The notes beneath the pieces were generated by a model. The model was not told the DNA's origin. It searched no databases and saw nothing but the letters and a program-made list of their open reading frames with translations. From the NCBI RefSeq assembly GCF_900105985.1, contig NZ_FNUB01000004.1, positions 533,501 to 597,500 on the forward strand: DNA of 64,000 nucleotides. The letters run 5' to 3'. Of this stretch, positions 1,105 to 48,235 are shown piece by piece. Numbering within the stretch: the first letter of the stretch is position 1; each line of letters starts with the position of its first letter. The translations under genes were made by a program, and so were the position numbers. The stretch comes from Tenacibaculum sp. MAR_2010_89 (GTDB lineage: Bacteria; Bacteroidota; Bacteroidia; Flavobacteriales; Flavobacteriaceae).

Positions 1105-3012
1105 ATGATTAAAAATTTATTTCTTAAAATTATAGATAAATACGCTTCTAAGTGGATTGTTTTAACTATTGACATTATATTAATATGTATCTCATTCATA
1201 TTAGCGTATAGTGTTCGTTTTAACGCAAGTTTAAATTTTAATTTAGAAAGTTTATATATTCAAATTCCTTTTATCGCTATAGTAGCTCTAATAAGTTTCC
1301 TAGTAGTTGGATCCTACAGAGGTATTATTAGACATACTGGAACAAGGGATGCATTCAATGTTTTTGTCGGTGTTACATTGCTTTCAATGATCTCAATAAG
1401 TATTGTTTTATTAAATAATACCTTTAAAGTTATTCCAAACTTTACAATTCCAAAATCTATTATTATTATTCATTATTTAATTTCTATTTTAATTTTAATA
1501 GTTAGTAGATATGTTTTTAAGGCTTTTTTTGAAATAATCTCTTCAGAATTGGATGATATTACTAATGTTTTAATATATGGTGCTGGTGACTCAGGGTTAA
1601 TAACTTACGGGGCATTAAATAGGGATACTAAAAACAAATACCAAGTTGTTGGATTTATTGATGATGATCGAAAAAAGCTTGGAAAAAAAATAAATAGAAT
1701 AAAAATTTATGAGAAGAAAAAAATTGATAGTCAATTCATCAAGAAACAAGAAATTGATGAGATTATTATATCTATTCAAAATATAAAATCAGAAAAGCTA
1801 CTTTATTTAACTGATAAGTTACTTCAATTAGGTGTTAAAGTAAAGATAGTTCCTCCTTTATCAAAATGGATCGATGGGGATTTAGAGGCTAATCAAATTA
1901 AACAAGTAAAGATTGAAGATCTTCTAGACAGAAAACCTATTTCAATAGACAATCCTATTGTTAAAAGAGATGTAAACAATAAAGTAATATTGGTAACTGG
2001 TGCCGCTGGTTCAATTGGATCAGAAATATCAAGACAACTTAGCACCTATAATAATTATAAACATCTTATTTTAGTTGATCAAGCAGAATCAGCTCTTTAT
2101 GATCTTCAGCAAGAACTAATACAAAAAAACAAAGGTAACTTTACCGCAATTGTTGCAGATGTAAAAGATAAAATACGAATATCTGATATATTTGAAACTT
2201 ACAAACCCAATAAAGTATTCCATGCTGCTGCCTATAAACATGTCCCTTTGATGGAAATGAGTCCATATGAAGCTGTAAAAATTAATATTGGAGGAACAAA
2301 AAATATAGCTGATTTATCTATAAAACATAAAGTGGAACGTTTCGTTATGGTTTCAACAGATAAAGCAGTTAACCCTACAAACGTAATGGGAGCAACAAAG
2401 CGTGTTGCTGAAATGTATATTAGTTGCTTAAGTAATTTAACTAACCACACAACAAAATTCACAACTACTCGTTTTGGTAATGTTCTCGGTTCAAATGGTT
2501 CAGTTATCCCATTATTTAAAAAGCAAATTGAAAACGGTGGACCTCTAACTGTTACACATAAAGATATTACTCGTTATTTCATGACTATACCAGAAGCTTG
2601 CTGCTTAGTCCTTGAAGCAGGAACTATGGGTAACGGTGGTGAAATTTATATTTTTGACATGGGTAAATCTGTAAAAATATATGACATTGCAAAACGAATG
2701 ATTCATTTATCAGGATTGCGTTTCCCTGATGATATAGATATAAAAATAGCTGGTTTACGTCCAGGAGAAAAACTTTATGAAGAATTACTTGCAAATGGGG
2801 AAAACACGTCTCCTACTTATCATGAAAAAATCATGATTGCAAAAAACCAAGAGATTGACTACAAACATATAAGGCAAAAAATCATAGAATTATGTATCTC
2901 AAATGGTGATCATAATAATCAAAAGACTGTACAATTTATAAAAGATATTGTTCCTGAATACATCTCAAAAAATTCGATTTACGAGAAATTAGATTCTACA
3001 ATCAAAAATTAA
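1105..3012 (+). CDS. Membrane-bound UDP-sugar 4,6-dehydratase (CapD/WbpM/PglF type)
   Basis: A 635-residue nucleotide-sugar dehydratase of the polysaccharide biosynthesis family. Four N-terminal membrane helices (about 15-140) are followed by a first Rossmann domain (GAGDSG, 159-164) and then the catalytic SDR domain (GAAGSIGSE from about 299). STDK (417-420) and the lysine of MGATK (432) mark the active-site region. Length and architecture match WbpM/PglF enzymes, which convert UDP-GlcNAc to the 4-keto-6-deoxy sugar used for bacillosamine, QuiNAc or FucNAc. The following wza- and wzc-like genes run in the same direction. A PglE-like aminotransferase that could use the product lies at 23030-24169. 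The exact product is inferred from family membership. Confidence 0.9.
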   Translation: MIKNLFLKIIDKYASKWIVLTIDIILICISFILAYSVRFNASLNFNLESLYIQIPFIAIVALISFLVVGSYRGIIRHTGTRDAFNVFVGVTLLSMISISIVLLNNTFKVIPNFTIPKSIIIIHYLISILILIVSRYVFKAFFEIISSELDDITNVLIYGAGDSGLITYGALNRDTKNKYQVVGFIDDDRKKLGKKINRIKIYEKKKIDSQFIKKQEIDEIIISIQNIKSEKLLYLTDKLLQLGVKVKIVPPLSKWIDGDLEANQIKQVKIEDLLDRKPISIDNPIVKRDVNNKVILVTGAAGSIGSEISRQLSTYNNYKHLILVDQAESALYDLQQELIQKNKGNFTAIVADVKDKIRISDIFETYKPNKVFHAAAYKHVPLMEMSPYEAVKINIGGTKNIADLSIKHKVERFVMVSTDKAVNPTNVMGATKRVAEMYISCLSNLTNHTTKFTTTRFGNVLGSNGSVIPLFKKQIENGGPLTVTHKDITRYFMTIPEACCLVLEAGTMGNGGEIYIFDMGKSVKIYDIAKRMIHLSGLRFPDDIDIKIAGLRPGEKLYEELLANGENTSPTYHEKIMIAKNQEIDYKHIRQKIIELCISNGDHNNQKTVQFIKDIVPEYISKNSIYEKLDSTIKN

Positions 3013-6949: not shown

Positions 6950-7070
6950 AAAACAACAAAATTTGAAGTGCTAATTTACTACATTATTTTATCTAATTAA
7001 TAAAACCAAACAGTATAACAAATTTTTGTTCAAAATATATCGTTCATTTATATTTGAAAAAACATTAAAT

Positions 7071-9175: not shown

Positions 9176-9189
9176 AGATTAAAAATAAT

Positions 9190-9215
9190 AAACCTCATTG
9201 AAATCAATGAGGTTT
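9190..9215 (-). terminator. Intrinsic terminator after gldJ
   Basis: A perfect 11-bp inverted repeat (9190-9200 and 9205-9215, loop AAAT) lies 26 bases past the gldJ stop codon. On the minus strand it is followed by a T-rich run (9181-9189). It sits just upstream of the murF start, so murF probably has its own promoter or depends on read-through. Confidence 0.75.
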
Positions 9216-9240
9216 ACTTACTTTAAATTTAAAAATTTGT

Positions 9241-22990: not shown

Positions 22991-23030
22991 AAAGTAAAGA
23001 ACCCAGAAAATTTTCTGGGTTCTTTACTTT
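22991..23030 (-). terminator. Strong palindromic terminator ending the main glycan operon
   Basis: A perfect 40-base palindrome (20-bp arms 22991-23010 and 23011-23030, with no unpaired loop other than the turn itself) touches the stop codon of the PglE-like aminotransferase. The minus-strand side runs into a T-containing tract. It is the longest stem in the window. Confidence 0.8.
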
Positions 23031-24214: not shown

Positions 24215-25294
24215 TTATTCTTCTATTGACATTCTATATAATGGAAAAAAAGACTCATCTTCTTCCTTCAATTCTTTTAATGATTTAGACTCTCTAAATT
24301 TATTCAGCTTTAACAATAAACTCTCGTAGGCTTCTTTATTTATAATTTTTCTCCCTGTATAATAATTAACAACATTTTTAGGAAAAAAAGACTTCTTATA
24401 TTTAAAAATTCCATCCTCGAATCCATATCCTCCTCCTAAAGTGTAAAAAGCTTTACCTTTACCTCTAGACCAATCAATAATTTTTACTTTTAAGAAATCA
24501 TTTGGTCTTTTATCAAAGTAAGCTTCATTTGTCCCTCCTAAAAAAGAATAAACAGAATCTTGAGATATTAAAATAAGTTCAGAAGAAATAGGTTTTTCTT
24601 GAAAATACACAGTACAAATTGCACAAAATTTAGGGTTATTATTTATAAATTCTTTAAACCCTTTTAAGCTATAAAAAAAACTATTCTTTGCATTCGTACG
24701 AATCATAGTTTCTTCATAAATTTTATAAAATTCTTCAACGTGATTATCAGAAATAGTATCATAATAAATATTACTATAAACTTCTTCTCTTATAGCTTTA
24801 TTTATATTTTTTCGAACTTTTCTATCAAATGCTTTCCACTGATCTTCTTCAGTAAGAATTTCTCCTTTAACATTCAACATTGTTTTAACAGTATATCCAG
24901 AATAATATAAATGATTATTAGCTAAATTAAATCTTATAAATTCACTTACAACGTTATTGTTGTTGTACCAATTCTCAACATTTTCCCAAAATAATAATAT
25001 TTCATTTTTTCCAATTTTATTAGAAAAAAATGGACCTGTGTATCCATAAGGAGTTATAAAATCAAAATATGGTGTTACTTGATCTGCAATCGATATTGAC
25101 CTTATATACCCTGGCATGAAGATAATATCTCCATAATTATTTTCACTATAAAAACATATTAAATTCTTAGTACCTTCTCCAAAAACATTAATATAATCAA
25201 GTAAAAAATATGGTTCTGTATTTTTACTTTTCTCTAGTAATTTCTTATAATCTTTCTCTCCTTCTCCCGAATCTATATATATAACATCAAACAT
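24215..25294 (-). CDS. FemAB-like / GNAT-fold acyltransferase
   Basis: A 359-residue protein of the FemAB-like acetyltransferase superfamily. The central region (about 165-290) contains FDRKVRKNINKAIRE, a run of EEFYKIYEETMIRTNAK, then ISSELILISQDSVYSFLGG and NDFLKVKIIDWSRGKG, the usual order of conserved blocks in this group. FemX-type relatives move amino acids from tRNA to peptidoglycan precursors, and others acylate sugars or proteins. It overlaps the DegT-like gene by 8 bases and is followed by the PglE-like gene after 45 bases. A role in decorating an amino sugar of the glycan repeat is inferred from context only. Confidence 0.75.
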   Translation of the reverse strand: MFDVIYIDSGEGEKDYKKLLEKSKNTEPYFLLDYINVFGEGTKNLICFYSENNYGDIIFMPGYIRSISIADQVTPYFDFITPYGYTGPFFSNKIGKNEILLFWENVENWYNNNNVVSEFIRFNLANNHLYYSGYTVKTMLNVKGEILTEEDQWKAFDRKVRKNINKAIREEVYSNIYYDTISDNHVEEFYKIYEETMIRTNAKNSFFYSLKGFKEFINNNPKFCAICTVYFQEKPISSELILISQDSVYSFLGGTNEAYFDKRPNDFLKVKIIDWSRGKGKAFYTLGGGYGFEDGIFKYKKSFFPKNVVNYYTGRKIINKEAYESLLLKLNKFRESKSLKELKEEDESFFPLYRMSIEE

Positions 25295-26201
25295 TTAATA
25301 TATTTTTTAATTTTAATGCCATCTTTTTCAATTCCACTTTAGAAACATCCTGATGTATAGGTAAATTCATTATTTTTTTTGAGGCTACACTAGAAGCAAG
25401 AGATTTATTTGATTCTAAATCATTAATCATTGTATGATATAAACTTACTACTCCAAAACCAGCTTCATTCATCTCTTCATAAAGATTATCTCTATTATAA
25501 TTTTTAATTATAATTGGTAATGTTTGGGGGCAAATACCGTCTTCTAACTTTTCATAAACTATCTCTATCCCAGATAGATCTTTTAATAAACTGCACAAAT
25601 ATTTATAATTTGCTCTTCTAATATTAAAAATAGATAAGAGATCATAATTTAATTCTACAAAAGGATTAATTTTAGAAATTTCTTTATTGTTTTTAGGCAT
25701 ATTACTTACCATCATACCTCCTTTTGACAAAGGAAGTAATTTATGTAAAGAGTAAAAAGAAAAATTTCCTTTCCTTCCAGATTTCCCTCCAATTAAATCT
25801 GTTAGCCAAGCATGAGCAGCATCTTCAACAAAAAAAACATTGTTATCTGTTAACCAACTCGTTATTTCGTCATATTTCACATCAATAAAACCAAAGTAAT
25901 GAACTAATAAAACTAAAGGTTCATCGTTTTCATTTATTTTTATCTTTAAATCTTCAAAATTTATTTCTAATTTTACCCCTAGATCATAAAAATCATAGTC
26001 TAAACCTGAATTAGATACTGAATCAAAGATACCACTTCCTTCATTAGATGACCATCCTATATATGATGGTAATAGTACTTTTCCTTTAGGGTTAAAAATT
26101 TTATATTCTTGTATAATTTTACTCCAGGCTTCCCTGGCTGAATTCGTTAAAATCCATTCTCTTTTATAAAGCTCTTTATTTAATGCTTTTTTTGTGATCA
26201 T
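25287..26201 (-). CDS. Short, divergent DegT/DnrJ-type PLP aminotransferase-like protein
   Basis: A 304-residue protein with the DegT fold but shorter than the usual 370-400. The Asp segment is VEDAAHAW (Asp127) and the PLP lysine is probably Lys154 in YSLHKLLPLSKGGMM. LLVHYFGF corresponds to the family's VVHLYG block. The C-terminal domain is reduced. It overlaps the FemAB-like gene by 8 bases and the GNAT gene by 4, so the three are translationally coupled. The substrate is not recognisable. Confidence 0.75.
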   Translation of the reverse strand: MITKKALNKELYKREWILTNSAREAWSKIIQEYKIFNPKGKVLLPSYIGWSSNEGSGIFDSVSNSGLDYDFYDLGVKLEINFEDLKIKINENDEPLVLLVHYFGFIDVKYDEITSWLTDNNVFFVEDAAHAWLTDLIGGKSGRKGNFSFYSLHKLLPLSKGGMMVSNMPKNNKEISKINPFVELNYDLLSIFNIRRANYKYLCSLLKDLSGIEIVYEKLEDGICPQTLPIIIKNYNRDNLYEEMNEAGFGVVSLYHTMINDLESNKSLASSVASKKIMNLPIHQDVSKVELKKMALKLKNILNV

Positions 26202-26959
26202 AATTCTATATTTAATCCCATTCTCTCTATTTGATCAATAAATTTCAATTCAGAAAATTGATATTCATTCCCTATATAATATATCTTTCTTATTTCAAGA
26301 GCTTTACTAATATAAATTAGATGACTATTTACAGATTCATCATAATTCCCTCTAATAAAAAGATCATTCTCTATAACTCCAATTTTAATATCTTTATCTT
26401 GAATACTAATATCTATAAAGTAAAATCCAAATATTTTTTTCATTTCTTTATATTGGGGGAAATTTTTAATATAAATACTATTTTTATTTTCGCTACTTCT
26501 ATTTAGTTCTAATTCATAAAATATTTTAAAATTTAATTTCTTAAACCCATACTTACTATACCAATCAACTGCCAATAAGTTAGTTGAATAGACATCCAAT
26601 TCTATAGATTGAAATCTTTTTTTCTGAAAATATTTCTTAGAATATTCAAATATTCTACTTCCTATCCTTTGATTTTTGTATTCATTACTTACCGATATTA
26701 TATTTAAAAAAGCCATATTCTGTTTTTTAAACATTTTATATTCTGTATAAGCGACTACTTTATTATTAATATAGAGAACAAAATATTTATATGGAGAAAA
26801 TTCATTTTCAAGCTCATTTAAAATAAATTTATTTATTCCTTCTCCTCTATATATTGATGGTATTATATAGCTCTTTTTAAAAGAGGTTCTAACAAGATTC
26901 ACAACAGTATCAACATCCTTAGCTAATAACTCACTTACTTCAAATTCTTCGTTCATCAT
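26198..26959 (-). CDS. GNAT-family acyltransferase
   Basis: A 253-residue protein. The N-terminal 150 residues form a GNAT domain: FLNIISVSNEYKNQRIGSRIFEY contains the acetyl-CoA pyrophosphate loop (normally Q/RxxGxG/A, here NQRIGS), and LAVDWYSKYGFKKL is the typical beta-7 region. The last 100 residues have no recognised domain. Two ATG codons occur at 26959 and 26956, and the frame's earlier TTG is less likely. It overlaps the PglC-like gene by 20 bases. It may supply the acetyl or acyl group that PglD gives in bacillosamine synthesis, but that is a guess. Confidence 0.75.
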   Translation of the reverse strand: MMNEEFEVSELLAKDVDTVVNLVRTSFKKSYIIPSIYRGEGINKFILNELENEFSPYKYFVLYINNKVVAYTEYKMFKKQNMAFLNIISVSNEYKNQRIGSRIFEYSKKYFQKKRFQSIELDVYSTNLLAVDWYSKYGFKKLNFKIFYELELNRSSENKNSIYIKNFPQYKEMKKIFGFYFIDISIQDKDIKIGVIENDLFIRGNYDESVNSHLIYISKALEIRKIYYIGNEYQFSELKFIDQIERMGLNIEL

Positions 26960-27551
26960 CAAAATTTTTCATGATAGATTCAGGATCTATAACAATATCT
27001 TCTGAAACAATAATTTTTAATACTGTCTTATATAAAATTTTTACATCAAACATAAAACTTAATTTTTTGACATATTCAACATCATAAGCCAATCTTTCAT
27101 CCCAACTTACAGTATTCCTTCCGTTAATTTGTGCCCAACCTGTTATACCAGGTTTTATAGTATGTCTTATTCTTTCTTTATCTGTGTAAAAAGGTAAATA
27201 TCTTAACAACAAAGGTCTTGGTCCAATTAAACTCATATCCCCTTTAATAACATTCAATAATTGTGGTAACTCATCTAATGATGTTTTCCGTATTATAGAG
27301 CCAACTTTGGTTAATCTTTCTGAATCAGGTAATAACTCTCCATCATTCCCTTTTTTATCGTTCATTGTCTTGAATTTAATTATTCTAAATATTTTTTCAT
27401 TCATACCTGGTCTCTCTTGAAAAAAGAACGGTTTTCCTTCATTAAATATATACAATAATACTAAAACAATTAAAAATATAGGACTAATTAATAGTAAGCC
27501 TAAAAAAGAAAAAAGAAAATCAATTACTCTTTTAAAAAATGATCTATACAT
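26940..27551 (-). CDS. Initiating phosphoglycosyl transferase (PglC/bacterial sugar transferase)
   Basis: A 203-residue monotopic membrane enzyme that moves a sugar phosphate from a UDP-sugar to undecaprenyl phosphate, the first membrane step of repeat-unit assembly. The re-entrant N-terminal hydrophobic segment (about 9-36) includes SPIF. The catalytic dyad Asp93-Glu94 is in SLDELPQLLNVIKGDMSLIGPRP, and PGITGWAQINGRN follows. Its minimal length is that of PglC, without the extra membrane domain of WcaJ/WbaP. A UDP-diNAcBac-like donor fits the neighbouring dehydratase and aminotransferase genes. Confidence 0.93.
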   Translation of the reverse strand: MYRSFFKRVIDFLFSFLGLLLISPIFLIVLVLLYIFNEGKPFFFQERPGMNEKIFRIIKFKTMNDKKGNDGELLPDSERLTKVGSIIRKTSLDELPQLLNVIKGDMSLIGPRPLLLRYLPFYTDKERIRHTIKPGITGWAQINGRNTVSWDERLAYDVEYVKKLSFMFDVKILYKTVLKIIVSEDIVIDPESIMKNFDDERRI

Positions 27552-33595: not shown

Positions 33596-34705
33596 TTATT
33601 TATAATATTGTATTTGTTCTTTATCTTCCCAAAAAAATTTATACTCATCTATTGATCGCATTGAAAAAAGAGTCAGTGACACAAAACTAATTATAGTGAA
33701 AAAATATATAATTTTTTGTGTTTTAACTGATTTCATACTAGTAGCATCTAATAAAAAAGGAATCCAAACAACCATAATTATAGAAAAATATTGGGCAACT
33801 CGTCCTGCACTAGGGTTTACCCATTGAAGTGGAAGTAATAATAATGCTATCGCATAAACATTGTATTTTCTATGAACATTATTATCTAAACTACTCATTC
33901 TTTTAATTTGTATTACACCCCAAATTGCCAATATTATTTGAAATAAAGTTAAAATAAAAGACCCTCCTGTTTTATATTGTTCCGTATAAGTTCCAAATCG
34001 ATCTTCTAAACCAGATGAAGACACTAAAACAATGGCTAATATGTTCTTAAAATAAAAAACTATAGGGAAACTAATTAATGCAAATATAAAAATTCTCCTA
34101 TAATTCTTATACTCCAAAACAAATAACAATGCAATAAATACTATTGCCGATATATGAAATAAGGCTCCTATTAATACAAATAAAATAAACATAAAATACC
34201 TTTTCCCTTTTAGATATTCATAACTCCATAATAGAAAAGCAGTTGCCAAAGTTTGTCTAATGCCAGTGATAGAATAAAACCCATAAAAGTACCCCATGTA
34301 AATAATAAAAGAAACCATTGCATGATTTATGGTTAATGTATTTTTATAAATAAATCGACCAAAAGCAGTCATGAATATAAAAGCTACAAAGAGTAAATAT
34401 AGCTGATAGCTTTCGGAAAAAAACTGAAATCCTTTTTGAAAAATAGAATAAAAAGGATCTTTAATTCCAAAATCAATTAATGATGTTAATAGATGATTCC
34501 AAGAATCACTTTTAATGTATTCAAATCTAAAATAATATTGATATGTATCTGAACCTACAGCCCAACTTCTTAAACCTGATTGTAATATCAAAATAATAGA
34601 TATGAATATTATATAACTTTTTCTTCTTTTATTAATATTTCCTGTTTTATTTTGAAATAAAACAGTGCTGAATATTATTATTATTAATATAAAAAGTCTA
34701 ATCAT
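33596..34705 (-). CDS. O-unit polymerase, EpsG/Wzy-like membrane protein
   Basis: A 369-residue polytopic membrane protein with about ten hydrophobic segments. The early motif RSWAVGSDTYQYY is the EpsG-family hallmark, and GFYSITGIRQTLATAFLLWSYEYL is the second conserved block. EpsG-family proteins act as Wzy-type polymerases, joining lipid-linked repeats on the periplasmic side. A flippase at 43124 and the Wzc-like protein at 3817 complete a Wzx/Wzy system. No other polymerase candidate is present. Confidence 0.85.
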   Translation of the reverse strand: MIRLFILIIIIFSTVLFQNKTGNINKRRKSYIIFISIILILQSGLRSWAVGSDTYQYYFRFEYIKSDSWNHLLTSLIDFGIKDPFYSIFQKGFQFFSESYQLYLLFVAFIFMTAFGRFIYKNTLTINHAMVSFIIYMGYFYGFYSITGIRQTLATAFLLWSYEYLKGKRYFMFILFVLIGALFHISAIVFIALLFVLEYKNYRRIFIFALISFPIVFYFKNILAIVLVSSSGLEDRFGTYTEQYKTGGSFILTLFQIILAIWGVIQIKRMSSLDNNVHRKYNVYAIALLLLPLQWVNPSAGRVAQYFSIIMVVWIPFLLDATSMKSVKTQKIIYFFTIISFVSLTLFSMRSIDEYKFFWEDKEQIQYYK

Positions 34706-34707
34706 TC

Positions 34708-35256
34708 TTACTTTTTTGAATTCACATTGAGGGTTTCAAAATACTTTTTTAAAGCTTTATCTTTTTCTTTTCCTTTTAAGTGCCCTAAATGAAGTGATCT
34801 CTTTTTTATTCCCTCAAAATAATCGTCGATTGATTTAATAAATTTTGCAGGTACACCACCAACAACTGAATTATCAGGGACATCTTTTGCAATTACAGAA
34901 CCAGCTGCTACTATACAATTGTTTCCTATAGTTACACCAGGAAGAATTACACTCCTTACTCCAATATAAACATTATTTCCTATCTCAATAGGGGCAGTAA
35001 TCTCCAAGTCAGGGACTTTATCCCTAAATAATAAAGTTCCTCCATCGTGAGTTACGAATAAAACTTCTCTAGTTATATGAACATTATTCCCCAATTTTAT
35101 ACACCAAGGTTCGGTACTAAACATTTCTAATGGACTTCCATAAATATAGACTCTCTCTCCCATATTTACTCCAATATATTTGGCATATCCAACATGGTTT
35201 ATAGTAGCAAAACAATAGTGATAAATTTTTCTAAAAATTTTTAAAACAATTTTCAT
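34708..35256 (-). CDS. Hexapeptide-repeat acyltransferase (CatB/maltose acetyltransferase type)
   Basis: A 182-residue left-handed beta-helix protein. Hexapeptide repeats appear as [56 protein letters not shown], and the end motif [11 protein letters not shown] is characteristic. The histidine in VTHDGG is the usual catalytic base. Such enzymes O-acetylate sugars or N-acetylate amino sugars from acetyl-CoA. The layout is closer to O-acetyltransferases than to the N-acetyltransferases PglD or WbpD. It overlaps the CBS-nucleotidyltransferase gene by 4 bases. Confidence 0.85.
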
Positions 35257-37565: not shown

Positions 37566-38240
37566 TTATATTAGACCTCCGTTAATATCAATAGAAGAAC
37601 CATTGGTATAATTACATTCTCTAAGGTATTCTACAGTTCTAAAGATATCAGTAGAATCACATAATTTCTTTGCTGGGATTTGTTGAATTAATGTGTTTAA
37701 AAAAGCTTCAGGTACTTGCTCTATCATTCCTAACTCACTATAGCCAAGGTTAATATTATTGATAGTAATATTTTTAGAAGCGTTCTCTTGAGCTAAGGAT
37801 TTAGCCATACCCCATAATGCTGATTTTGATGCTGAATAAGCACTAGTACCAGCAGTTCCTTTTGATGCAACAACAGATGAAAAATTAATGATTCTTCCAA
37901 AATTTTGTTCCCTCATAATTGGTAATACTACTCTAATAGTATTAAAGCTACCTATTAAATTAACTTCAATAACTTTCTTCCATTTTTCAGGATCACTTTT
38001 ATGCGCAAAAGAGTTATAACTAATTCCTGCACAATTAATCAATGTAATGTTATTAAGTGACGTTTTATTCGTTTCAATCCAATTAAACACTTGATCAAAG
38101 TTTGTTACGTCAACTTTTGATAATTCAACAACATTTGAAGAACTTGAATTATACGTTCCTATTACTTGAGAATCTATTGATTTGTACTTTTCAAAAAGAA
38201 ATTTACCAATACCACCAGAAGCACCAATTATTAATATCAT
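37566..38240 (-). CDS. SDR oxidoreductase, FabG-like
   Basis: A 224-residue classical short-chain dehydrogenase/reductase. It shows GASGGIGKFL (6-15), LINCAGIS, the catalytic Ser in NFSSVVAS and YSASKSALWGMAKSLAQENA (YxxxK), plus the Asn of the tetrad region. The closest general type is FabG, which reduces 3-oxoacyl-ACP. The preceding gene is a KASIII, so the two could make a short 3-hydroxyacyl group for the glycan. The ordinary C-terminal SSIDINGGLI ends the protein. Confidence 0.86.
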   Translation of the reverse strand: MILIIGASGGIGKFLFEKYKSIDSQVIGTYNSSSSNVVELSKVDVTNFDQVFNWIETNKTSLNNITLINCAGISYNSFAHKSDPEKWKKVIEVNLIGSFNTIRVVLPIMREQNFGRIINFSSVVASKGTAGTSAYSASKSALWGMAKSLAQENASKNITINNINLGYSELGMIEQVPEAFLNTLIQQIPAKKLCDSTDIFRTVEYLRECNYTNGSSIDINGGLI

Positions 38241-38273
38241 ATTATTACTATTCTTTATTTAGTTTATTAAGCA

Positions 38274-39263
38274 TTAAGCCCATTTAATTATTGAAGCCCC
38301 ATACGTCCATCCACTACCAACAGCAGCAAATAAGATAATGTCACCATGTTTAAGTTTTCCTGACTTATTAAGTTCATCTAACAATATAGGGATTGTTGCT
38401 CCAGAAGTATTTGCATACTTTTCCATGTTTGTCATAACTTTTTCAAAAGGCAAACCAATTATCTCTGCTGTTTTCTTTAAAATCCGAATACTTGGTTGAT
38501 GAGGAATCATTAAATCAATATCATTAATTGATAACCCTGTATCTTCAAGAACCTGGTTAATAGCCTTTGGAAGTGCTCTTGTAGCTGAAGCAAAAACAGC
38601 CTTTCCGTCCATTTGAAAATATTGTTCTTCCATATTGTCGGCGTGTAAAGGTATTTCTGACCCTCCGCCTGGGATTGTAAAACCAAGCATGTTTTTTGAA
38701 GTATCTGTGTATAATCTATAGGCCAAAAATCCTTCAGTGACATTTGCAGAAGTAACAACAGCTGCTCCGGCACCATCACCGAAAAAAATAGCGTCCCTTC
38801 TTTTCCAATCTGTAATCTTGGTAAAAGTATCTGCTCCTATAACCAATACATTATTATAAACTCCAGAAGCAATATATTGACTAGCAACTGACATACCAAA
38901 TAAAAAACCGCTACATACCGCTGTTAAATCGAATGCTGCGGCGTTAAAACAATTTAATTTGTGTTGTACAAATGCTGCAGTAGATGGTGCTTTTCTATCG
39001 GGAGTTGAAGTAGCAACAATAATTAAATCAATATCTTCATTTTTCAACCCAGCACTATCTATTGCTCTTTGTCCCGCTATCTTAGATAAATCACTGGTTG
39101 CCTGATCTTCTGAAGCTACGCGCCTCTCTTTTATTCCAACATTCTCATAAACCCATTTTGAATTTGTCGGAACTATTGTTTCAAGATATTCATTTGTAAA
39201 AATAGTCTCAGGCACATATGAACCTGTACCTAAAATTTTTACATTCCTAATTAATTGCTTCAT
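38274..39263 (-). CDS. 3-oxoacyl-ACP synthase III (KASIII) inside the glycan cluster
   Basis: A 329-residue KASIII with the intact triad Cys117 (DLTAVCSGF), His255 (MIPHQPSIR) and Asn285 (YANTSGATIP). The acyl-CoA primed condensation and GAGAAVV block agree with FabH. The location among glycosyltransferases and a FabG-like SDR, away from accABCD, fabD or an ACP gene, argues for making a dedicated short acyl substituent rather than membrane lipid. It differs clearly from the KASIII-like protein at 16344, where the catalytic segment is LFGCPGW. Confidence 0.92.
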   Translation of the reverse strand: MKQLIRNVKILGTGSYVPETIFTNEYLETIVPTNSKWVYENVGIKERRVASEDQATSDLSKIAGQRAIDSAGLKNEDIDLIIVATSTPDRKAPSTAAFVQHKLNCFNAAAFDLTAVCSGFLFGMSVASQYIASGVYNNVLVIGADTFTKITDWKRRDAIFFGDGAGAAVVTSANVTEGFLAYRLYTDTSKNMLGFTIPGGGSEIPLHADNMEEQYFQMDGKAVFASATRALPKAINQVLEDTGLSINDIDLMIPHQPSIRILKKTAEIIGLPFEKVMTNMEKYANTSGATIPILLDELNKSGKLKHGDIILFAAVGSGWTYGASIIKWA

Positions 39264-39300
39264 TTCTATTTTCTATTTTAATAAAAATCTATTAAACTGA

Positions 39301-39858
39301 TTAAATAACATATGCATTTAAATCATTAATTTCTAAAAAATCCTTTTTCAACAACCCCAATACTAAAGCATCTTGATAAGCTCCTCCTTGATATACATGC
39401 TCTTTCATAGTTCCTTCTACCTTAAACCCAATCTTTTTATCCGAAATAATAGCAATGTCATTATAGGTTAATGCATAAGAATGAACCTTATGAAGATTTA
39501 ATTCATTAAATAAATATCCATAAAATAAAATTGAAGCTTCTTTAAAGTAACCTTTACCTCTACCTTGTTTATGAAAAAACAATCCCACATGTGCATTTGA
39601 ATTTATGTAATTAATATTACTTGCCGTACAATAACCTACAAATAAATTAGTATCGTTTTCTTCAATAGCAAATGTAATATTTGATAACAACCCGTTAGGA
39701 TACATTTTTGAAATCCATTCTTTTTCACTATTTTCGTTTGTCGGAAATGGACGTCCTCCTGCTGCTTTTACCCCCTCAAAATCCGACCTCATTTCTGCAA
39801 TCAACTTAGCATCATTCTCTGTAAATGCTCTTAAGCGAATTCTTTTACTTTTATACAT
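39301..39858 (-). CDS. GNAT acyltransferase (RimJ/RimL/PseH-like)
   Basis: A 185-residue GNAT protein. The opening SKRIRLRAFTENDAKLIAEMR is that of the RimJ/RimL group. The CoA loop is in HKQGRGKGYFKEASILFYGYLFNEL (QGRGKG), and LHKVHSYALTYNDIAIISDKKIGFKVEGTMKEHVYQGGAYQDALVLGLL is the shared C-terminal half. Members of this branch include PseH, which N-acetylates a 4-amino sugar. Between the ATP-grasp and KASIII genes it is the best candidate to put an acyl chain onto an amino sugar. Confidence 0.85.
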   Translation of the reverse strand: MYKSKRIRLRAFTENDAKLIAEMRSDFEGVKAAGGRPFPTNENSEKEWISKMYPNGLLSNITFAIEENDTNLFVGYCTASNINYINSNAHVGLFFHKQGRGKGYFKEASILFYGYLFNELNLHKVHSYALTYNDIAIISDKKIGFKVEGTMKEHVYQGGAYQDALVLGLLKKDFLEINDLNAYVI

Positions 39859-39897
39859 ACTCTTTATATTAACTTAATATTAAAATATTTTCTCTCT

Positions 39898-41064
39898 CTA
39901 AATTTTAATTCTATTTTTCAAATCTATCAAAAAAATATTATAATTTTTAATTGCATTTGATATTATGTCACTACTTAAAATAACCTCACCATATCGATCT
40001 AAACTATTTTTAATTTCCGGTATTTTATCTCCAACTTTTAGATGAAAAGAAAAATGCTCTAACTTCCATTTCTTTTTAGGCTCATCTGGAAAATTAAGCT
40101 GGTTTACTACCCCATCTCCAAAGTTCAAAAAACGCACGATGGCACTTTTATTTAATGATTCTTTCAATACTGGTGCTTCTCCTATAGCTATTTTTATTAA
40201 CTCTTGCTCAATATTTATACCTGTTGATAACTTTACTAAATGAGATGTAATAAAATCGCCTCCTAGTCTCGGGCTACTTTCAATTACAAAGATACCTTTT
40301 TTTCCTATTTTCAATTCTGTATGAGAGGCACAATTATTAAAACCTAAAGATTTTGCAATTTTTAATATAATTAATTCAATTTGCTCTTTATATTCTTCGC
40401 TAATATTTGCAGGTTGATTATGTCCTAGTTCAACATTATAAGGTATAGAAGTTGTGATTTTTTCAGTGTATTGAATTACAAATGATTTCCCTCCAAAATG
40501 AAGGCTTTCGATACTATATTCATTTCCTTCAATATATTCCTCTACCAAAATACTTTCTTGCTTAGTAAAAGACTTAGTCTCTTTTAAACCTTTTTCAGCA
40601 GCAACCTTATTCTCACAATAAATTACTCCTCTGCTACCTGAGTTATCTACTGGTTTTAATATAATTGGATAATTAAATTTTTCTATTTCTTTAACTAATT
40701 TACCTTTTGCAAAAGGGATTCCTTTTTCTCTGAAAGCATTTTTCATTAAATATTTATCAGTAGAAATTGCAGCACTTTTTACTGATATAAATGGAAGATT
40801 TAATGCTTCAGCTATTCTAGCCATCATAACTAAAGGCTTATCTGTTGCTGAAGTAATTACACCTGAAATATTATATTTTTTTGCGATTTCTAATGTTCCC
40901 GTATAATCGTCACCGCTTATTACTTTAAAAACATCAACTAACCCATTACATTCAGCATTAGAATCTGGGTCTATACCAATTGTGAACAATCCTAATTTCT
41001 TTGCTTGTTCAATTAATGAGCGCTGTAATTTAGCTACACCAAATATTAAAATAGATTTATTCAT
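39898..41064 (-). CDS. ATP-grasp carboxylate-amine ligase-like protein
   Basis: A 388-residue ATP-grasp enzyme. The N-terminal pre-ATP-grasp domain starts LIFGVAKLQRSLIEQAKKLG. The central lid and ATP site include FNYPIILKPVDNSGSRGVIYC and ILVEEYIEGNEYSIES, and the metal site lies near FVIESSPRLGGDF. Such enzymes form amide or ester bonds through an acyl phosphate. In a glycan cluster it may link an amino acid or hydroxy acid to an amino sugar. Its substrate is not recognisable. It overlaps the frameshifted aminotransferase by 8 bases. Confidence 0.82.
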   Translation of the reverse strand: MNKSILIFGVAKLQRSLIEQAKKLGLFTIGIDPDSNAECNGLVDVFKVISGDDYTGTLEIAKKYNISGVITSATDKPLVMMARIAEALNLPFISVKSAAISTDKYLMKNAFREKGIPFAKGKLVKEIEKFNYPIILKPVDNSGSRGVIYCENKVAAEKGLKETKSFTKQESILVEEYIEGNEYSIESLHFGGKSFVIQYTEKITTSIPYNVELGHNQPANISEEYKEQIELIILKIAKSLGFNNCASHTELKIGKKGIFVIESSPRLGGDFITSHLVKLSTGINIEQELIKIAIGEAPVLKESLNKSAIVRFLNFGDGVVNQLNFPDEPKKKWKLEHFSFHLKVGDKIPEIKNSLDRYGEVILSSDIISNAIKNYNIFLIDLKNRIKI

Positions 41065-42191
41065 TTAATGCATTTTCTAACGTCAAAACTATATATTTAA
41101 CTTCTTCTTTTGTTAAAGAAGCATACATTGGCAAAGTTATTTCATTATCACAAACATACTCTGTAATAGGTAAAACTTTACTATATTCTTTATACACAGA
41201 AAATTTATGTATAGGAGGATAATGATTACTTGTTTGAACTCCTTTACTATGTAAATAATCCCGAACAGCGTCACGTTTTTTCAACCGTAGAATCTTTTAA
41301 TACAATTGGCATTATATAATTCGAAACAAACTCTTTGTTTTTTTCAAAAGGAATAATAACTTGTTCTATATCTTTAAGTGCATCTAGATAAAACTCTCTA
41401 ACCACTTCACGTTTAATTAAATCAGATTTAAGTTTTTTCATTTGAACAACTCCTATCGATGCTCTAATGTCATCCATCCTAAAATTATACCCTAAATCAA
41501 CAATATCATACGTCGTCGCGTGTCCTTTTGCTCTCTGATATGACATTGTAGTCATTCCATGAGATCTTAATAATCTACATCGTTTGGCTATTTCTTCGTT
41601 ATTTGTGATAATCATACCTCCTTCTCCAGTACTTATATTTTTGTTAGAGAAAAAACTAAACGTTCCTATATCCCCAATTGTACCTAACTTATTTCCTTTA
41701 TACTCTGATAGAGGAGCGTGACATGAATCTTCTATTACTCTTAAATTATGCTTCTTTGCTATTCGCATAATATCATCCATATCAACAGGAAAACCTGCCA
41801 TATGAACTACAACTATTGCTTTAGTTTTAGGTGTTATAAGCTTTTCTACTTCTACTGGGTTGATATTCATATTATCCAAACCAGTAATATCACAAAAAAC
41901 AGGAGTTGCTCCAACATAGCGAATACAATTTACTGAAGCTGCAAAAGTTAAAGACGGGCATATAACTTCATCTCCAACACCAATATGATTAGTAATCATA
42001 GCTAAATGTAATCCATCAGTACAATTAGAAATACTAATAGCATACTTAACATCAAACATTTCTTTAAAGAGGTTTTCAAGTTCTTCACATTTAGGCCCTG
42101 TAGAAATCCATTTAGAACGAATAGTATTTGTTACTGCTTCAATTTCTTCTTCTCCAAAATTTAACTTAAATAGTGGTATATTATATTCCAT
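41057..42191 (-). pseudogene. DegT-family sugar aminotransferase interrupted by a +1 frameshift
   Basis: Two frames together make one normal aminotransferase of about 378 residues. The 5' part (42191 down to 41271, 306 codons) has the PLP segment IEDSCHAPLSEYKG and Lys184 in FFSNKNISTGEGG. It stops at TGA just after VEKT. The 3' part (from about 41281 to 41057) continues as KRDAVRDYLHSKGVQTSNHYPP, the usual C-terminal block. The switch lies at an A6 run (41276-41281, T6 on the plus strand); five A would restore the frame. This may be a real mutation, programmed slippage or a sequencing error. If intact it would aminate a keto sugar, for example for the WlbA product or the second dehydratase's product. 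Confidence 0.85.
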
Positions 42192-43123: not shown

Positions 43124-44656
43124 TTATTTAACTGTTATTTTGTTTCTAAAAAAAAACAAATATTTTTTAATTTTTTCTTTCTCTTTTGTTTGCATTCCTA
43201 TTCTCCAAAAAAGAATCACTAGACTGGTCATATAAACCACAGCAATTATAATTAACTTCCATAAGCCGGTTGTAACAATATATAAAAATGGAATTAGCGT
43301 TATAATTGATGCAATTAAAATAGGTATTAATATTGGTAATATGGACTCTTTGATAAAAGATAAGGGGCTTAATTCAAATATTTTATATCCAAAATAAAGT
43401 CTATTTATAAATATAAATAATGAAATCAAAACTCCAATAATATAAATAGCTACTGGAGAATAATCTAATTTAAAAGCGACATAAGCAAATGGTATATTTA
43501 ACAGAAATAATATTGTTTCAATAATTTGAAATTCTCTTATATCACCAATAGCTCTTATAGCATCTGTTATTGGAAACGTGAATTTTTCTAACAGCAAAGT
43601 AACTATAGATATTTGAAAAAACACGACTGCAAAGTCGGGAACATCTATCAACCAAACTTTCAACAAATAAGAAGCTTCTAAAAAAACAGGTATTGCAAAT
43701 AGTCCAAATAAAAAAATAGAATATCTAGTGCTAATTCCTGTCATGTATAACATGCCTTTTCGGTCTCCTTCTCCCTCACTTTTTACTAGTCTCGGATTTA
43801 TTGCTCTTGTCATATTTGTTGAAACCATATTTACAGCTGTGCTCGCTGATCTAGATATTGCTTCTGCTGCATTCAATTTTACTCCAAAGAACATATTTAA
43901 TAATACCCCCCTCATTTGAGTTACCGCCATAGCTCCTAATGAACCTAATAAATTCCATCCAGTAAATGACGTTATTGATTTCATAATTGTTTTATCAAAA
44001 TAACGTAATTTTATCTTACATTCTTGATATTTAACTATACTGTACCATTGTTTTATAATTCTTAAAATCACTTGAACAAGTAACATTAAAAAACCATACT
44101 TTATCAATAAGTTATTTGTTGAGTATGTTAAATATATAGCTATTCCAAATTTTAGAATATCTCCCAATATATCAACTGCAGACAAAACTAAGAAGTTTTC
44201 ATGAGCATTCATTACTGCATCGTATGGTACAGATATAATTGTAACTAAAGTAGTAACTACCATAAAACCAAAAACAACCTTTGCTTCAAAAACTTTATGA
44301 ATTGGAATATTAAACAAATATTTAAAACCTAATAAACCAATTACTATCATAAAAACAACAACAATAAATCCTATCATAAAATGCAGGTACAATGTTGTAT
44401 TAAAGGTTTTTAATATTCGTTTTTTATCATTTGAGCCAAGACTATGCGCCATATAGCGCATAGAAGTGTTAGACATGCTAGAACTTAGGATACCCAATAT
44501 GGCTACGACTCCTGCGACAAGCATATAAATACCATAATCAGTTTCGCCAAGTGCTTTTAACACTAATCGTGTTGTCAATAAACCAATAACCAATCCAGTT
44601 ATCAACCTAAAATATAAAACTCCAGTATTAAATATTACTTTTTTTGCGTTTTTCAT
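43124..44656 (-). CDS. Polysaccharide flippase, Wzx-like
   Basis: A 510-residue integral membrane protein with roughly 12-14 hydrophobic segments and few charged residues inside them. It opens with KVIFNTGVLYFRLITGLVIGLLTTRLVLKALGETDYGIYML, the start typical of the MOP-superfamily O-unit flippases. Wzx moves undecaprenyl-linked repeats to the periplasmic face, where the EpsG-like polymerase would join them. I use the ATG at 44656, because the frame's preceding TTG adds one residue. It is the only flippase in the cluster. Confidence 0.9.
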   Translation of the reverse strand: MKNAKKVIFNTGVLYFRLITGLVIGLLTTRLVLKALGETDYGIYMLVAGVVAILGILSSSMSNTSMRYMAHSLGSNDKKRILKTFNTTLYLHFMIGFIVVVFMIVIGLLGFKYLFNIPIHKVFEAKVVFGFMVVTTLVTIISVPYDAVMNAHENFLVLSAVDILGDILKFGIAIYLTYSTNNLLIKYGFLMLLVQVILRIIKQWYSIVKYQECKIKLRYFDKTIMKSITSFTGWNLLGSLGAMAVTQMRGVLLNMFFGVKLNAAEAISRSASTAVNMVSTNMTRAINPRLVKSEGEGDRKGMLYMTGISTRYSIFLFGLFAIPVFLEASYLLKVWLIDVPDFAVVFFQISIVTLLLEKFTFPITDAIRAIGDIREFQIIETILFLLNIPFAYVAFKLDYSPVAIYIIGVLISLFIFINRLYFGYKIFELSPLSFIKESILPILIPILIASIITLIPFLYIVTTGLWKLIIIAVVYMTSLVILFWRIGMQTKEKEKIKKYLFFFRNKITVK

Positions 44657-44675
44657 CAATATTTTGTACCAAAAA

Positions 44676-45863
44676 TTACATTTTAGAATCTAAATACTTA
44701 CCAGTTTCTTTATGTTCAAAATTTGGAATCATTTCATTAAATAAGTCTATAATTTGTTCTTTATTCCATTTTTTCACTTTCCTCAACTCATTAATTTTAT
44801 TCTCAAAAAAGTCTAACTTCTTATTTTCAACTTTAAATACATTCTTAATGATTCCTAAGTTAACAAAACGCTCCATATCTAGGATTTCATTTTCTGTATA
44901 AAATTCTTCAAAATCTTTTTCTCCGGTAGTATCACTCGCTGTAAACAAGCAAGGCCATTTACCTTCATTAGGTAATTTATTAATTAGATCTCTCGCTTCT
45001 TTTTCATTTTTACATAAAAAAGATTCGTACCCTATACTTTTAAGATATTTAACAGCAATCTCCGAAAAAGAAATTAAATGTAGTGCTTCGTTTAATTTCG
45101 GAAAAAAAACATCCCTATTTCCCCCAAGTAAACATGACATTAGACACAATTCTCCTGCTTCTTCCGAAACTACAAAATATCGTTTTATATCATTAGGTGC
45201 TACAATTGGTTGTTTTTTTTGAATTCTTTGATTAAACCCATGTAAAAGTGAGCCGTCAGAAAATGCTACATTTGCAAAACGAGCTGTAGAAATGTTAATT
45301 TGTTCACTTCTCTTCATCAAAAACATTTCCATAATTCGTTTAGATGCACCCATCATATTTACAGGATTAGCTGCTTTATCTGTAGAAACACAAAAATATT
45401 TCTTTACACCTTTTTTAATGGATTGCTGTATTGTTTTATCGGTATTAAATATATTAACATCAATCATTCTCATTAATGTATATGGATCCTTTTCACTTCT
45501 TACATGTTTCAATGCTGATAAATTTAAAACATAATCATATACTCCATCTTGCTCAATAAATGCATCATATTCTAATGAACTAATATCTAAAGCAAATGTT
45601 TGAAAATCACCTTGGATATACCCTAAAGAACTTCTAATATCTCGAACTAATTCAACCATGTTATTTTCAGAAATATCGACTACATGTAGTTTTTTGGGAT
45701 CTCTTTTAAATATTTCTTTTGTGACAGCTTGTCCTATTGATCCTGCTCCTCCAATAACTAGAAAACGAGAGTTCCTTACAATATCACTAAGTTCATTTTT
45801 GTGTTTAACTATGTCCTCCGAAAAAAGTTTATTTTGGCGTCCTATTATATTTAAAACATTCAT
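44676..45863 (-). CDS. UDP/GDP-sugar 4,6-dehydratase, soluble single-domain (LegB-like)
   Basis: A 395-residue SDR of the polysaccharide biosynthesis family without membrane helices. The cofactor loop is VIGGAGSIGQAV (about 34-45), then LSALKHVRSEKDPYTLMRMIDVN, STDKAANPVNMMGASKRIMEMF (SDK and Lys pair), and YFVVSEEAGELCLM. Its long C-terminal extension (about 270-395) is typical of the LegB-like group rather than of CapE. It is therefore the third 4,6-dehydratase type in the window. With the CBS-nucleotidyltransferase and the broken aminotransferase it could make a second 4-amino-6-deoxy sugar. Confidence 0.83.
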   Translation of the reverse strand: MNVLNIIGRQNKLFSEDIVKHKNELSDIVRNSRFLVIGGAGSIGQAVTKEIFKRDPKKLHVVDISENNMVELVRDIRSSLGYIQGDFQTFALDISSLEYDAFIEQDGVYDYVLNLSALKHVRSEKDPYTLMRMIDVNIFNTDKTIQQSIKKGVKKYFCVSTDKAANPVNMMGASKRIMEMFLMKRSEQINISTARFANVAFSDGSLLHGFNQRIQKKQPIVAPNDIKRYFVVSEEAGELCLMSCLLGGNRDVFFPKLNEALHLISFSEIAVKYLKSIGYESFLCKNEKEARDLINKLPNEGKWPCLFTASDTTGEKDFEEFYTENEILDMERFVNLGIIKNVFKVENKKLDFFENKINELRKVKKWNKEQIIDLFNEMIPNFEHKETGKYLDSKM

Positions 45864-46856: not shown

Positions 46857-48235
46857 TTATTTACCTATTGTATATAATTTAAAACCTATCTCTTCTAACT
46901 CTTCTTTGACTAAAACATCTCTTCCGTCAAAAATAAAAGCAGGTTTTTCCATCTCATCATAAATTTTTTTCCAATCGTAATCTTTAAATTCATCCCATTC
47001 AGTTAATACAGCTATAGCATGCGCTCCTTTTAAAGCTAAATAGGGTGTTTTAGAACTTGATATTAATTCTTTATTTTCTTTATTTGTTCTTGTTCCTAGG
47101 TAATCTAAATCAGATAAAATTTGTTGATAATTAACTTTAGGATCAAAAACTTGAATTTTGGCTTGTTCTTCTAAAAGTTTATCGGCTACATAGATTGCTG
47201 CAGACTCTCTAGTATCATTAGTATCTTTCTTAAAAGCCCATCCTAAAAAAGCAATTTTCTTTCCAGAAACAGTATTAAATAGTGTTTTTACAATTTTTTT
47301 TACAAAGCGCTCTTTTTGATGATTATTCATTTCAATAACTTGACTCCAATAAGCTCCCACTTTTTCCAAACCAAATGATTTAGCCAAGTATACTAAATTT
47401 AGTATATCTTTCTGAAAACAAGACCCCCCAAAACCCACTGATGCTTTTAAAAACTTACCTCCAATTCTACTATCCGTTCCAATTGCATTAGCAACTTCAT
47501 CAACATCTGCTCCAGTTGCTTCACATAATTCTGAAATTGAATTAATTGATGAAATTCGTTGCGCTAAAAAAGCATTTGCAGTTAATTTAGACAATTCTGA
47601 AGACCATAAATTTGTTTTCAAAATTTTCTCAGATGAAACCCAATTTTCATAAATTTTTACCAAACAATTAATTGCATATTCATTCTCTCCACCTATTAAA
47701 ATTCGATCAGGCTTCAATAAATCATTAACTGCTGTACCTTCAGCTAAAAACTCAGGGTTTGATAATACATCAAATCTAACACTAGCTCCATTACTTTGAA
47801 ATATACTTTTAATGGCTTCTGCTGTTCTTACTGGTAATGTAGATTTTTCTACTACTATTTTATCATTCTTAGCTACTTGGGCTATTTGGCGGGCACATAA
47901 TTCAACATACTTCAAATCGGAAGCCATTCCTTTCCCTTCTCCATATGTTTTTGTTGGTGTATTAACTGAAATAAAAATCATTTCAGCTTCATCAATAGCT
48001 TTATCAACCTCAGTTGAAAAAAACAAATTTCGCCCCTAGTTTCTTTAATTACTTCCTTTAAGCCTGGCTCATAAATTGGTAAATTATTTAAATCAGAATC
48101 ATTCCAAGCTGAAATACGTTCCTTATTTAAATCTACAACAGTAACTTTTATTTCTGGATTTTTTAATGCAATAACTGACATAGTAGGTCCCCCTACGTAC
48201 CCAGCTCCAATACAACAAATATTTTTTATCTTCAT
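46857..48235 (-). pseudogene. ugd: UDP-glucose 6-dehydrogenase interrupted by a -1 frameshift
   Basis: Two frames make one Ugd of about 460 residues, the length of the animal-like bacterial type. The 5' part (48235 down to about 48036) has [17 protein letters not shown] and ends in sense up to KETRG. The 3' part resumes as [27 protein letters not shown], followed by the catalytic [14 protein letters not shown]. Restoring the expected RGRNLFFS requires one more G in the G4 run on the minus strand (C4 at 48033-48036). As written, the frame ends after 85 residues. This is either a sequencing error or a real loss. The enzyme would convert UDP-glucose to UDP-glucuronate for the xylose synthase. 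Confidence 0.88.

Follow-up and report, generated by a model that had tools for sequence, protein, structure and literature searches.

What do a FabH-type condensing enzyme and a FabG-like reductase do in the middle of a polysaccharide cluster? The question is raised by a stretch of 64,000 nucleotides from Tenacibaculum sp. MAR_2010_89 (Flavobacteriaceae), hereafter called the window (bases 533501-597500 of contig C4, NZ_FNUB01000004.1; the genome is 4.17 Mb). A polysaccharide cluster runs on its minus strand from 51.7 kb down to 21.0 kb and contains a block of genes for a short-chain dehydrogenase/reductase (SDR), a 3-ketoacyl-acyl carrier protein synthase III (KASIII), a GNAT N-acyltransferase, an ATP-grasp ligase and a sugar aminotransferase. 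We consider it quite probable that KASIII and SDR feed an acyltransferase, most likely the GNAT of the block, that N-acylates a glycan precursor. The whole proposal, drawn from sequence comparison, is that the block makes a custom acyl group and attaches it, with an amino-acid spacer, to a 4-amino-4,6-dideoxy sugar of the polysaccharide; its chances are about even, and those of the spacer between sugar and hydroxyacyl group, taken by itself, slightly less than even. Seen directly are the genes with their families and intact residues, the recurring KASIII-SDR pair, the frequent lack of an acyl carrier protein gene and the likeness to Escherichia coli O123. The substrate, the acyl length, the stereochemistry, the order of the steps, the role of the ATP-grasp enzyme and the preference for the GNAT over a nearby hexapeptide transferase are what we infer from the genes. 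The block and two further genes to which the proposal refers are the following:

37566..38240, minus strand: FabG-like SDR, 224 aa, proposed 3-ketoacyl reductase (PF00106, 121 bits)
38274..39263, minus strand: KASIII / FabH-type condensing enzyme, 329 aa (PF08545; PF08541, 106 bits; NF006829)
39301..39858, minus strand: GNAT N-acyltransferase, 185 aa (PF13302, 68 bits)
39898..41064, minus strand: ATP-grasp ligase, 388 aa, proposed amino acid-sugar amine coupler (PF13535, 80 bits)
41057..41284, minus strand: C4-type sugar aminotransferase, rear piece, 75 aa, in another frame (PF01041 positions 288-359, 45 bits)
41271..42191, minus strand: C4-type sugar aminotransferase (DegT), front piece, 306 aa (PF01041, 324 bits)
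44676..45863, minus strand: UDP-GlcNAc 4,6-dehydratase-like SDR, 395 aa (PF02719, 153 bits)
34708..35256, minus strand: hexapeptide (left-handed-helix) transferase, alternative acyltransferase (PF00132, 43 bits)

A first-pass annotation of the window had named the five gene families of the block at these positions on the minus strand, and Pfam matches bear out all five. It had treated the aminotransferase as one gene; the family holds, but the single frame does not, and two overlapping pieces match the front and the rear of PF01041 with a frame change at an A-run (41270-41285). The SDR, KASIII, GNAT and ATP-grasp genes are separated by gaps of 33-39 bases. KASIII scores 368 bits with NF006829 (cut-off 249) and also exceeds the cut-off of TIGR00747. 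Its triad Cys117/His255/Asn285, described earlier as intact, is seen directly and does not vary in alignment A2, whose 19 rows are drawn from the 120 KASIIIs listed, and the Cys-His-Asn triad is kept in 119/119 non-self relatives among the matches listed. In the SDR the motifs GASGGI and YSASK are present; its best NCBIfam model is acetoacetyl-CoA reductase TIGR01829 (163 bits, cut-off 302), and TIGR01830 gives 156 bits (cut-off 298), so both matches with FabG/acetoacetyl reductase models are below cut-off. The GNAT keeps the motif QGRGKG and reaches 34.7 bits with the PseH model TIGR03585, below its cut-off of 93.1.

Do KASIII and SDR also stand together elsewhere? Sampling 395 genomes from the phylum and 299 from a single genus, we find the nearest further KASIII copies in two Flavobacteriaceae genomes, G627 (68-69% identity) and G1054 (70%). 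In the former, a 6.2-kb contig (locus L082) carries in order genes for a 320-aa DegT-like protein, a GNAT (27% identity), KASIII, an SDR (58%), a flippase (PF13440) and a glycosyltransferase-like protein. In the latter (L086), two FdtA genes are followed by KASIII, an SDR (61%), a 313-aa WecD-type protein (WecD-type acyltransferase match of 41 bits, E 2e-10, under the cut-off of 219) and a DegT aminotransferase. According to these gene orders, therefore, KASIII and SDR stay paired while the acyltransferase and the sugar genes vary, the pair standing with a different GNAT in one locus and with the WecD-like protein in the other.

A scan of genome contigs gave four loci. On viral contigs, so labelled by IMG/VR itself, a single-sequence scan found no match, and a profile scan found 55 loci (L087-L141) with KASIII relatives 37-55% identical; terminase (PF03237) is present in 5 of the 26 viral-contig records tested. 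Counted over the 35 loci non-redundant at 90%, an acyltransferase (GNAT or hexapeptide, detected by likeness to gene 34708 or by GNAT profile, so that other kinds escape) lies within 3.5 kb of KASIII in 32, an SDR in 20 and both in 19, and an aminotransferase-like frame was seen in 11. Acyltransferase matches number 34 in the 238 kb near the viral KASIII and 0 in the 410 kb further off; the SDR matches in the same spans are 20 and 0. This clustering supports an acyl role of KASIII. In the 55 loci, KASIII and an acyltransferase often have SDR and nucleotide-sugar genes adjoining, and phage-borne acyl-amino-sugar kits on environmental virus contigs are suggested. The earlier prediction that KASIII and SDR make a 3-hydroxyacyl group for an acyltransferase acting on an amino sugar thus gains weight from the recurrence of the pair in L082 and L086, from the viral neighbours and from the experimental precedent of the viosamine island (PMC3927599).

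Can such a module do without a gene for an acyl carrier protein (ACP)? As had been pointed out before, the window has none: no PF00550 match occurs in it or on the rest of C4, and all 23 matches of the genome are on contig C5, where an AcpP-like gene adjoins a KAS gene. The missing ACP was considered as an objection to the acyl role and was set aside, since an ACP gene lies within 5 kb in just 1 of the 35 viral loci; moreover, it is nearby in neither of the two bacterial KASIII-SDR loci. A KASIII-SDR locus without its own ACP gene is thus common, and the module would borrow the cell's own ACP. Large multi-modular carrier-protein genes, with frames up to 5326 aa, are also found on C5 (G000:C5:907000-928500 and 1212700-1261400).

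The condensing enzyme itself appears to be of foreign origin. In the database search, E <= 1e-110 is reached by 1996 of the 8000 proteins scored; the listed part of these rows, apart from the window's own, comprises 119 relatives of 83-95% identity, whose names include Paludibacter, Desulfobacterales, Mangrovibacterium, Dysgonamonadaceae and Flavobacteriaceae. Within the family the gene is scarce, being found at E <= 1e-85 in 13 of 397 genomes including its own (best other 57%), and at E <= 1e-130 the 58 genomes of the genus hold no copy beyond that of the window. The three other KASIIIs found in the genome are 34-41% identical to it, and its G+C is 0.358 vs 0.25-0.31 in nine neighbouring frames. 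We read the rarity among relatives, the close homologues in distant taxa and the G+C as probable horizontal transfer of a conserved gene. Searches of plasmids (6 records) and of named phages (13 records, 12 of them unannotated) gave no KASIII reaching 60% identity. In a tree that takes 25 of the 119 listed relatives, the window copy joins metagenomic relatives (support 0.825) and two other glycan-cluster copies (0.738), and 14 flavobacterial-type copies are set apart (0.611). The label 'non-glycan' for the latter refers to 13 fetched contexts compared by BLAST with the window genes only. KASIIIs of this kind, 51-57% identical, occur in 12 other Flavobacteriaceae; in 11 fetched contexts a frame of 274-304 aa adjoins the gene (all three tested are PF13561 SDRs), and no window glycan gene matches in those contexts, barring weak epimerase-like matches in L067. 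These points, together with the large multi-domain carrier-protein genes on another contig of the genome, would favour a fatty-acid role, which is weighed below.

Which sugar would receive the acyl group? The closest PDB chain of the 44676 dehydratase is 3pvz, 'UDP-N-acetylglucosamine 4,6-dehydratase' (675 bits). The closest PDB chains of the front piece of the aminotransferase are ArnB and perosamine synthetase, and the aminotransferase is therefore taken as a C4 enzyme. Judging from the families, these two enzymes would make a nucleotide-linked 4-amino(-4,6-dideoxy) sugar, whose 4-amino group the ATP-grasp ligase may then couple to an amino acid, alanine being one possibility. As the families, the neighbourhoods and the comparison with Escherichia coli O123 suggest, KASIII would extend an acyl-CoA primer with malonyl carried by the housekeeping ACP; reduction of the resulting 3-keto compound by the SDR would give a 3-hydroxyacyl thioester, from which the GNAT would transfer the acyl group to the free amine of the aminoacyl sugar.

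Each of these steps is paralleled in known systems, and the combination of enzymes appears to be new. In literature searches on KASIII or ATP-grasp genes of capsule and O-antigen loci, confined to open-licence PMC papers, none was listed whose title or abstract opening describes the combination, which is no proof of absence. In the viosamine island of Pseudomonas syringae, vioS (KASIII), vioR (reductase), vioB and acp are placed in the pathway of N-(3-hydroxybutyryl)-viosamine, and deletion of vioR removes the modified sugar (PMC3927599, the part available). Compared by description, the island (vioA, vioB, vioS, vioR, acp) is like the block in having KASIII, ketoacyl reductase, acyltransferase and C4 aminotransferase in one cluster, the aminotransferase frame of the window being broken; it differs in having its own ACP and a methyltransferase, in showing no ATP-grasp gene in the seven ORFs described, and in decorating flagellin. 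The block, without ACP and with ATP-grasp, is outside the viosamine set as defined, and would work alike. In Flavobacterium psychrophilum, two KAS genes, an ACP, a reductase and a PglD homologue (R1 genes wfpC-wfpG) serve a sugar made by PglE/PglF, and type II fatty-acid-like acyl synthesis is thus found in another flavobacterial FucNAc / Qui2NAc4N / Rha locus; its two KAS genes, its own ACP, the PglD-type transferase and the lack of an ATP-grasp enzyme in the text searched distinguish it, again by description (PMC6519341). The block has no ACP, one KAS gene (KASI/II families were not searched elsewhere) and a GNAT in place of PglD, with the hexapeptide transferase 34708 four genes on. A simple copy of the F. 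psychrophilum system was therefore considered and rejected, as gene set and position differ. In Acinetobacter, the qhb genes for UDP-QuiNAc4NHb concern a 4-amino sugar with acetyl or 3-hydroxybutyryl, and the part of the report seen names a dehydratase, an aminotransferase and an acyltransferase only (PMC3628348). The cluster of E. coli O103 shares rfbAB, an aminotransferase and a GNAT with the window; KASIII, reductase, ACP and ATP-grasp are unannotated there, and it has a 3,4-ketoisomerase, so its sugar is a 3-amino sugar. The O103 sugar is 3-hydroxybutyramido-Fuc3N.

The spacer is proposed from the comparison with E. coli O123. Qui4N bearing N-[(R)-3-hydroxybutyryl]-L-alanyl is known from published polysaccharides (PMC3210612, seen in part), a further case being Proteus vulgaris O4, by title in the references of PMC8074265, and the sugar of E. 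coli O123 bears N-[(S)-3-hydroxybutyryl]-D-alanyl (PMC10609480, seen in part). The clusters annotated O123/O186 (L157/L156), reached in E. coli records from fnlA and its neighbours, contain wzx, an aminotransferase, WbqC, a 324-aa protein, a GNAT and MaoC; the WbqC gene has a DNA match in 10 of 5,426 E. coli genomes, and the DNA of the block has none in E. coli genomes. Like these clusters (and that of Salmonella O58), the window combines an aminotransferase with a GNAT, 33% identical to that of O123 over 174 aa (E 1e-27), for a 4-amino sugar; in O123/O186, MaoC stands for KASIII and SDR, WbqC and the 324-aa protein are present, and no ATP-grasp gene is annotated. The two E. coli GNATs compared, those of O123 and O103, behave differently: the window GNAT has no usable match with the latter, and on the profile of its family the O123 GNAT scores 111.8 bits (the best compared outside the family, before L082 with 101.9 and L074 with 100.6), whereas the O103 GNAT is unreported at E <= 10. 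Furthermore, the 324-aa protein of O123, which has no Pfam match, is 33% identical to the 320-aa protein of L082; L082 therefore reads as an O123 set with KASIII and SDR for MaoC, and KASIII-SDR and MaoC look like two ways to a 3-hydroxyacyl thioester.

For the ATP-grasp enzyme, the match with LAL_C2 is 23 bits, below the cut-off of 29.4, and LAL_C2 (PF18603) is precomputed for many of its listed homologues; in the PDB, 4dim (132 bits) and the L-amino acid ligase BL00235 (78 bits) are matched. At locus L019 a contig-end ATP-grasp piece (34%) stands directly before a 50% GNAT, and at L018 a 54% GNAT stands directly before WbqC. Relatives of GNAT, KASIII and ATP-grasp apparently share one contig of 7,822 bases, and relatives of GNAT and ATP-grasp apparently share one of 239,682 bases, for which Tara labels place both on the plus strand about 0.9 kb apart; these co-locations come from equal 'longest contig' values. 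The comparison took in the full set of 74 GNAT rows, those 120 of the 1996 KASIII rows that were listed, and 56 of the 120 ATP-grasp rows listed. Apart from self matches, lengths coincide 5 times for GNAT-KASIII (chance 0.58 per offset), one of these cases (2208 bases) being from unlike sources, 2 times for GNAT-ATP-grasp (chance 0.27 per offset) and 2 times for KASIII-ATP-grasp (chance 0.36 per offset). That the ATP-grasp enzyme of the window is the counterpart, as amino-acid adder, of WbqC in O123 and L018 is an analogy and may be called the weakest part of the proposal.

Several points weigh against the spaced N-acyl sugar predicted here from the genes. The ATP-grasp enzyme is outside the KASIII-SDR module, being absent from L082 and L086 and found beside 0 of the 35 viral-contig KASIIIs. 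What links it to the block is the GNAT, on the evidence of a single contig-end locus (L019) and the two contigs deduced from equal lengths, and O123 adds D-Ala without an annotated ATP-grasp gene. SpeG, FdhC and PseH resemble the GNAT model no less than RimJ does, the O123 GNAT also matches PseH (63 bits), a family member in L019 weakly matches the O103 GNAT (E 4e-6), and an identity of 33% leaves the acceptor unfixed. At L017:9977-11270 a GNAT (55%) and an SDR (50%) are adjacent without KASIII among non-glycan genes; on the opposite strand this pair is flanked by M49-type peptidase and HlyD/MacB genes. Most viral acyltransferases beside KASIII are of the hexapeptide kind, found through likeness to gene 34708, which could act here as the acyltransferase instead of the GNAT, and the viral control concerns clustering only and does not separate KASIII from the other sugar genes of the patch. 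In addition, both precedents with a known product carry their own ACP, and the broken aminotransferase frame may mean that the pathway is off in this strain.

The alternative that survives best changes the acyl group and leaves the other steps as proposed: KASIII could take a primer above acetyl (hydroxybutyryl, branched or longer), giving a group of C6 or more, for example dihydroxyhexanoyl. We regard this as a serious candidate, somewhat on the doubtful side. The first-pass annotation had expected acetoacetyl and then 3-hydroxybutyryl, or longer, chains; the exact C4 product is not assured, because the Phe of the FabH gate is Ala (Ala92) in the block KASIII, and what stands is that a larger primer is possible. 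At this column Phe is found in 5/5 printed PDB alignments, Ala in 119/119 listed close relatives, and Ser in 50, Ala in 4 and Asn in 1 of the 55 viral relatives, so the bulky gate of the acetyl-specific E. coli type is lacking. According to a paper on PqsD, a bulky gate residue favours acetyl-CoA and a small one long primers (PMC3734052), and F. psychrophilum bears 3,5-dihydroxyhexanoyl (PMC6519341, in the text searched). However, a small residue is also found in the flavobacterial-type KASIIIs outside glycan loci (Ala 12, Val 2, n=14; the other three copies of the genome have Val, Phe and Leu), specificity is not set by one residue, and the block has one KAS gene, F. psychrophilum two.

Slightly less probable, though worth keeping in view, is direct acylation, in which the GNAT or the product of 34708 transfers the 3-hydroxyacyl group to the 4-amino group without a spacer, on the pattern of the viosamine island, and the ATP-grasp enzyme has its substrate in a different residue of the repeat, such as a uronic acid that it would amidate. 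The location of the ATP-grasp gene between aminotransferase and GNAT, its recurrence beside the same GNAT family and the greater closeness of the window GNAT to that of O123 than to that of O103 argue for the spacer instead.

Improbable is a decayed cassette, that is, one whose sugar is no longer made because the aminotransferase frame is broken at its A-run. A T-run near 48015 splits the gene for a UDP-sugar dehydrogenase likewise (46857-48026 and 47978-48235), and such breaks at two homopolymers of the cluster agree with assembly error or phase variation no less than with decay; moreover, the other four genes of the block are open. Finally, that KASIII and SDR serve fatty-acid or other small-molecule synthesis, with an ordinary acetyltransferase adjacent by chance, is very unlikely in view of the recurring acyltransferase neighbours and of the tree, in which the window KASIII groups with metagenomic and glycan-cluster copies apart from the flavobacterial type.

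How does the block fit into the rest of the cluster? Read from 51.7 kb downwards, the cluster opens with an epimerase; next come two UDP-sugar dehydrogenases, of which one is split between frames, a GFO/IDH oxidoreductase and a UXS-like epimerase. The dehydratase (44676-45863), the flippase-like protein and a weak match to a glycosyltransferase lead on to the block, with the aminotransferase in its two pieces, ATP-grasp, GNAT, KASIII and SDR. These are followed by a GT4-like enzyme, a CBS-nucleotidyltransferase, the hexapeptide transferase (in NCBIfam, 74 bits with maltose O-acetyltransferase, cut-off 314, and 61 with NeuD/PglB/VioB, cut-off 161) and a Wzy-like protein, then by FnlA-like, cupin-like, FnlB-like and WecB/FnlC-like proteins, two glycosyltransferase-like proteins and a PglC-like transferase. 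The low-coordinate end holds a trio of GNAT, small DegT and FemAB-like genes, a pglE-like aminotransferase and rmlA- and rmlB-like genes. The features referred to below are:

43124..44659, minus strand: flippase-like membrane protein (PF01554, 20 bits, below cut-off; Wzx by size and position only)
33596..34705, minus strand: Wzy-like membrane protein (from position and hydrophobic sequence only; 0 NCBIfam matches)
26940-27551: pglC-like gene, flanking the trio 24215-26962
26198-26962, minus strand: RimI-like GNAT of the trio at the R-group position, outside the block
25287-26201, minus strand: small DegT-like gene of the same trio, outside the block
24215-25294, minus strand: FemAB-like gene of the same trio, outside the block
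23030-24169: pglE-like gene, flanking the trio 24215-26962
1105..3012, plus strand: PglF/WbpM-like dehydratase, 635 aa (PF02719, 396 bits at G000:C4:535487-536344 = window 1987-2844)

In the genome, PF02719 is matched 13 times, and the matches in the window include the PglF-like protein (which scores 204 bits with the PseB model, cut-off 408), the FnlA-like protein and the dehydratase of 44676, with its 395 aa. Counting the pglE-like gene at 23030, two predicted dehydratase-aminotransferase sets are in the window. By gene order, PglF and PglE would make the first sugar, transferred by PglC as in F. psychrophilum, and the 44676 dehydratase with the aminotransferase at 41057-42191 would supply another 4-amino sugar, for which the KASIII block would provide the acyl group. 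The parallel with F. psychrophilum drawn in the first-pass annotation is therefore weak: the R1 set there, in the text searched, is different (PMC6519341), the interval between pglC and pglE in the window holds other genes (24215-26962), and the PglF-like gene is at 1105-3012 while the KASIII block lies near a separate dehydratase and aminotransferase. The trio occupies the R-group position of F. psychrophilum and may give the cluster another N-acyl-aminoacyl system; a similar layout is seen in L074 (G233, 6466-10896), whose GNAT is 53% identical to that of E. coli O123. The CBS-nucleotidyltransferase at 35253 raised the idea of a nonulosonic-acid pathway, for which NeuB (PF03102) was sought; the genome matches it once, on C5 and so outside the window. 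A second KASIII-like gene, 34% identical to that of the block, with the condensing Cys kept and Leu at the gate, lies at 16344-17408 between a cytidine-deaminase-like gene before it and a GMP-synthase-like gene (by eye) after it.

We put forward, as a speculation that is rather unlikely in its entirety, that a mobile ACP-less KASIII-SDR acyl module circulates through the glycan loci of bacteria from several phyla, with more distant kin in phage genomes, and joins whichever acyltransferase and amino-sugar pathway is present; here, with an ATP-grasp ligase, it would build an N-(3-hydroxyacyl)-aminoacyl sugar by an undescribed route, and phages would use such kits in remodelling the host surface. 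Unusual N-acyl groups shape serotype specificity, and in F. psychrophilum differences in the R-group genes accompany differences in lipopolysaccharide antigenicity (PMC6519341, in the text searched). A rule in which KASIII and SDR (or MaoC) are the hydroxyacyl source, a GNAT or hexapeptide protein the transferase and ATP-grasp or WbqC the amino-acid adder would allow such structures to be predicted from sequence. The ATP-grasp and WbqC proteins of glycan clusters thereby gain a testable role, and the finding points to phages that may carry a similar kit.

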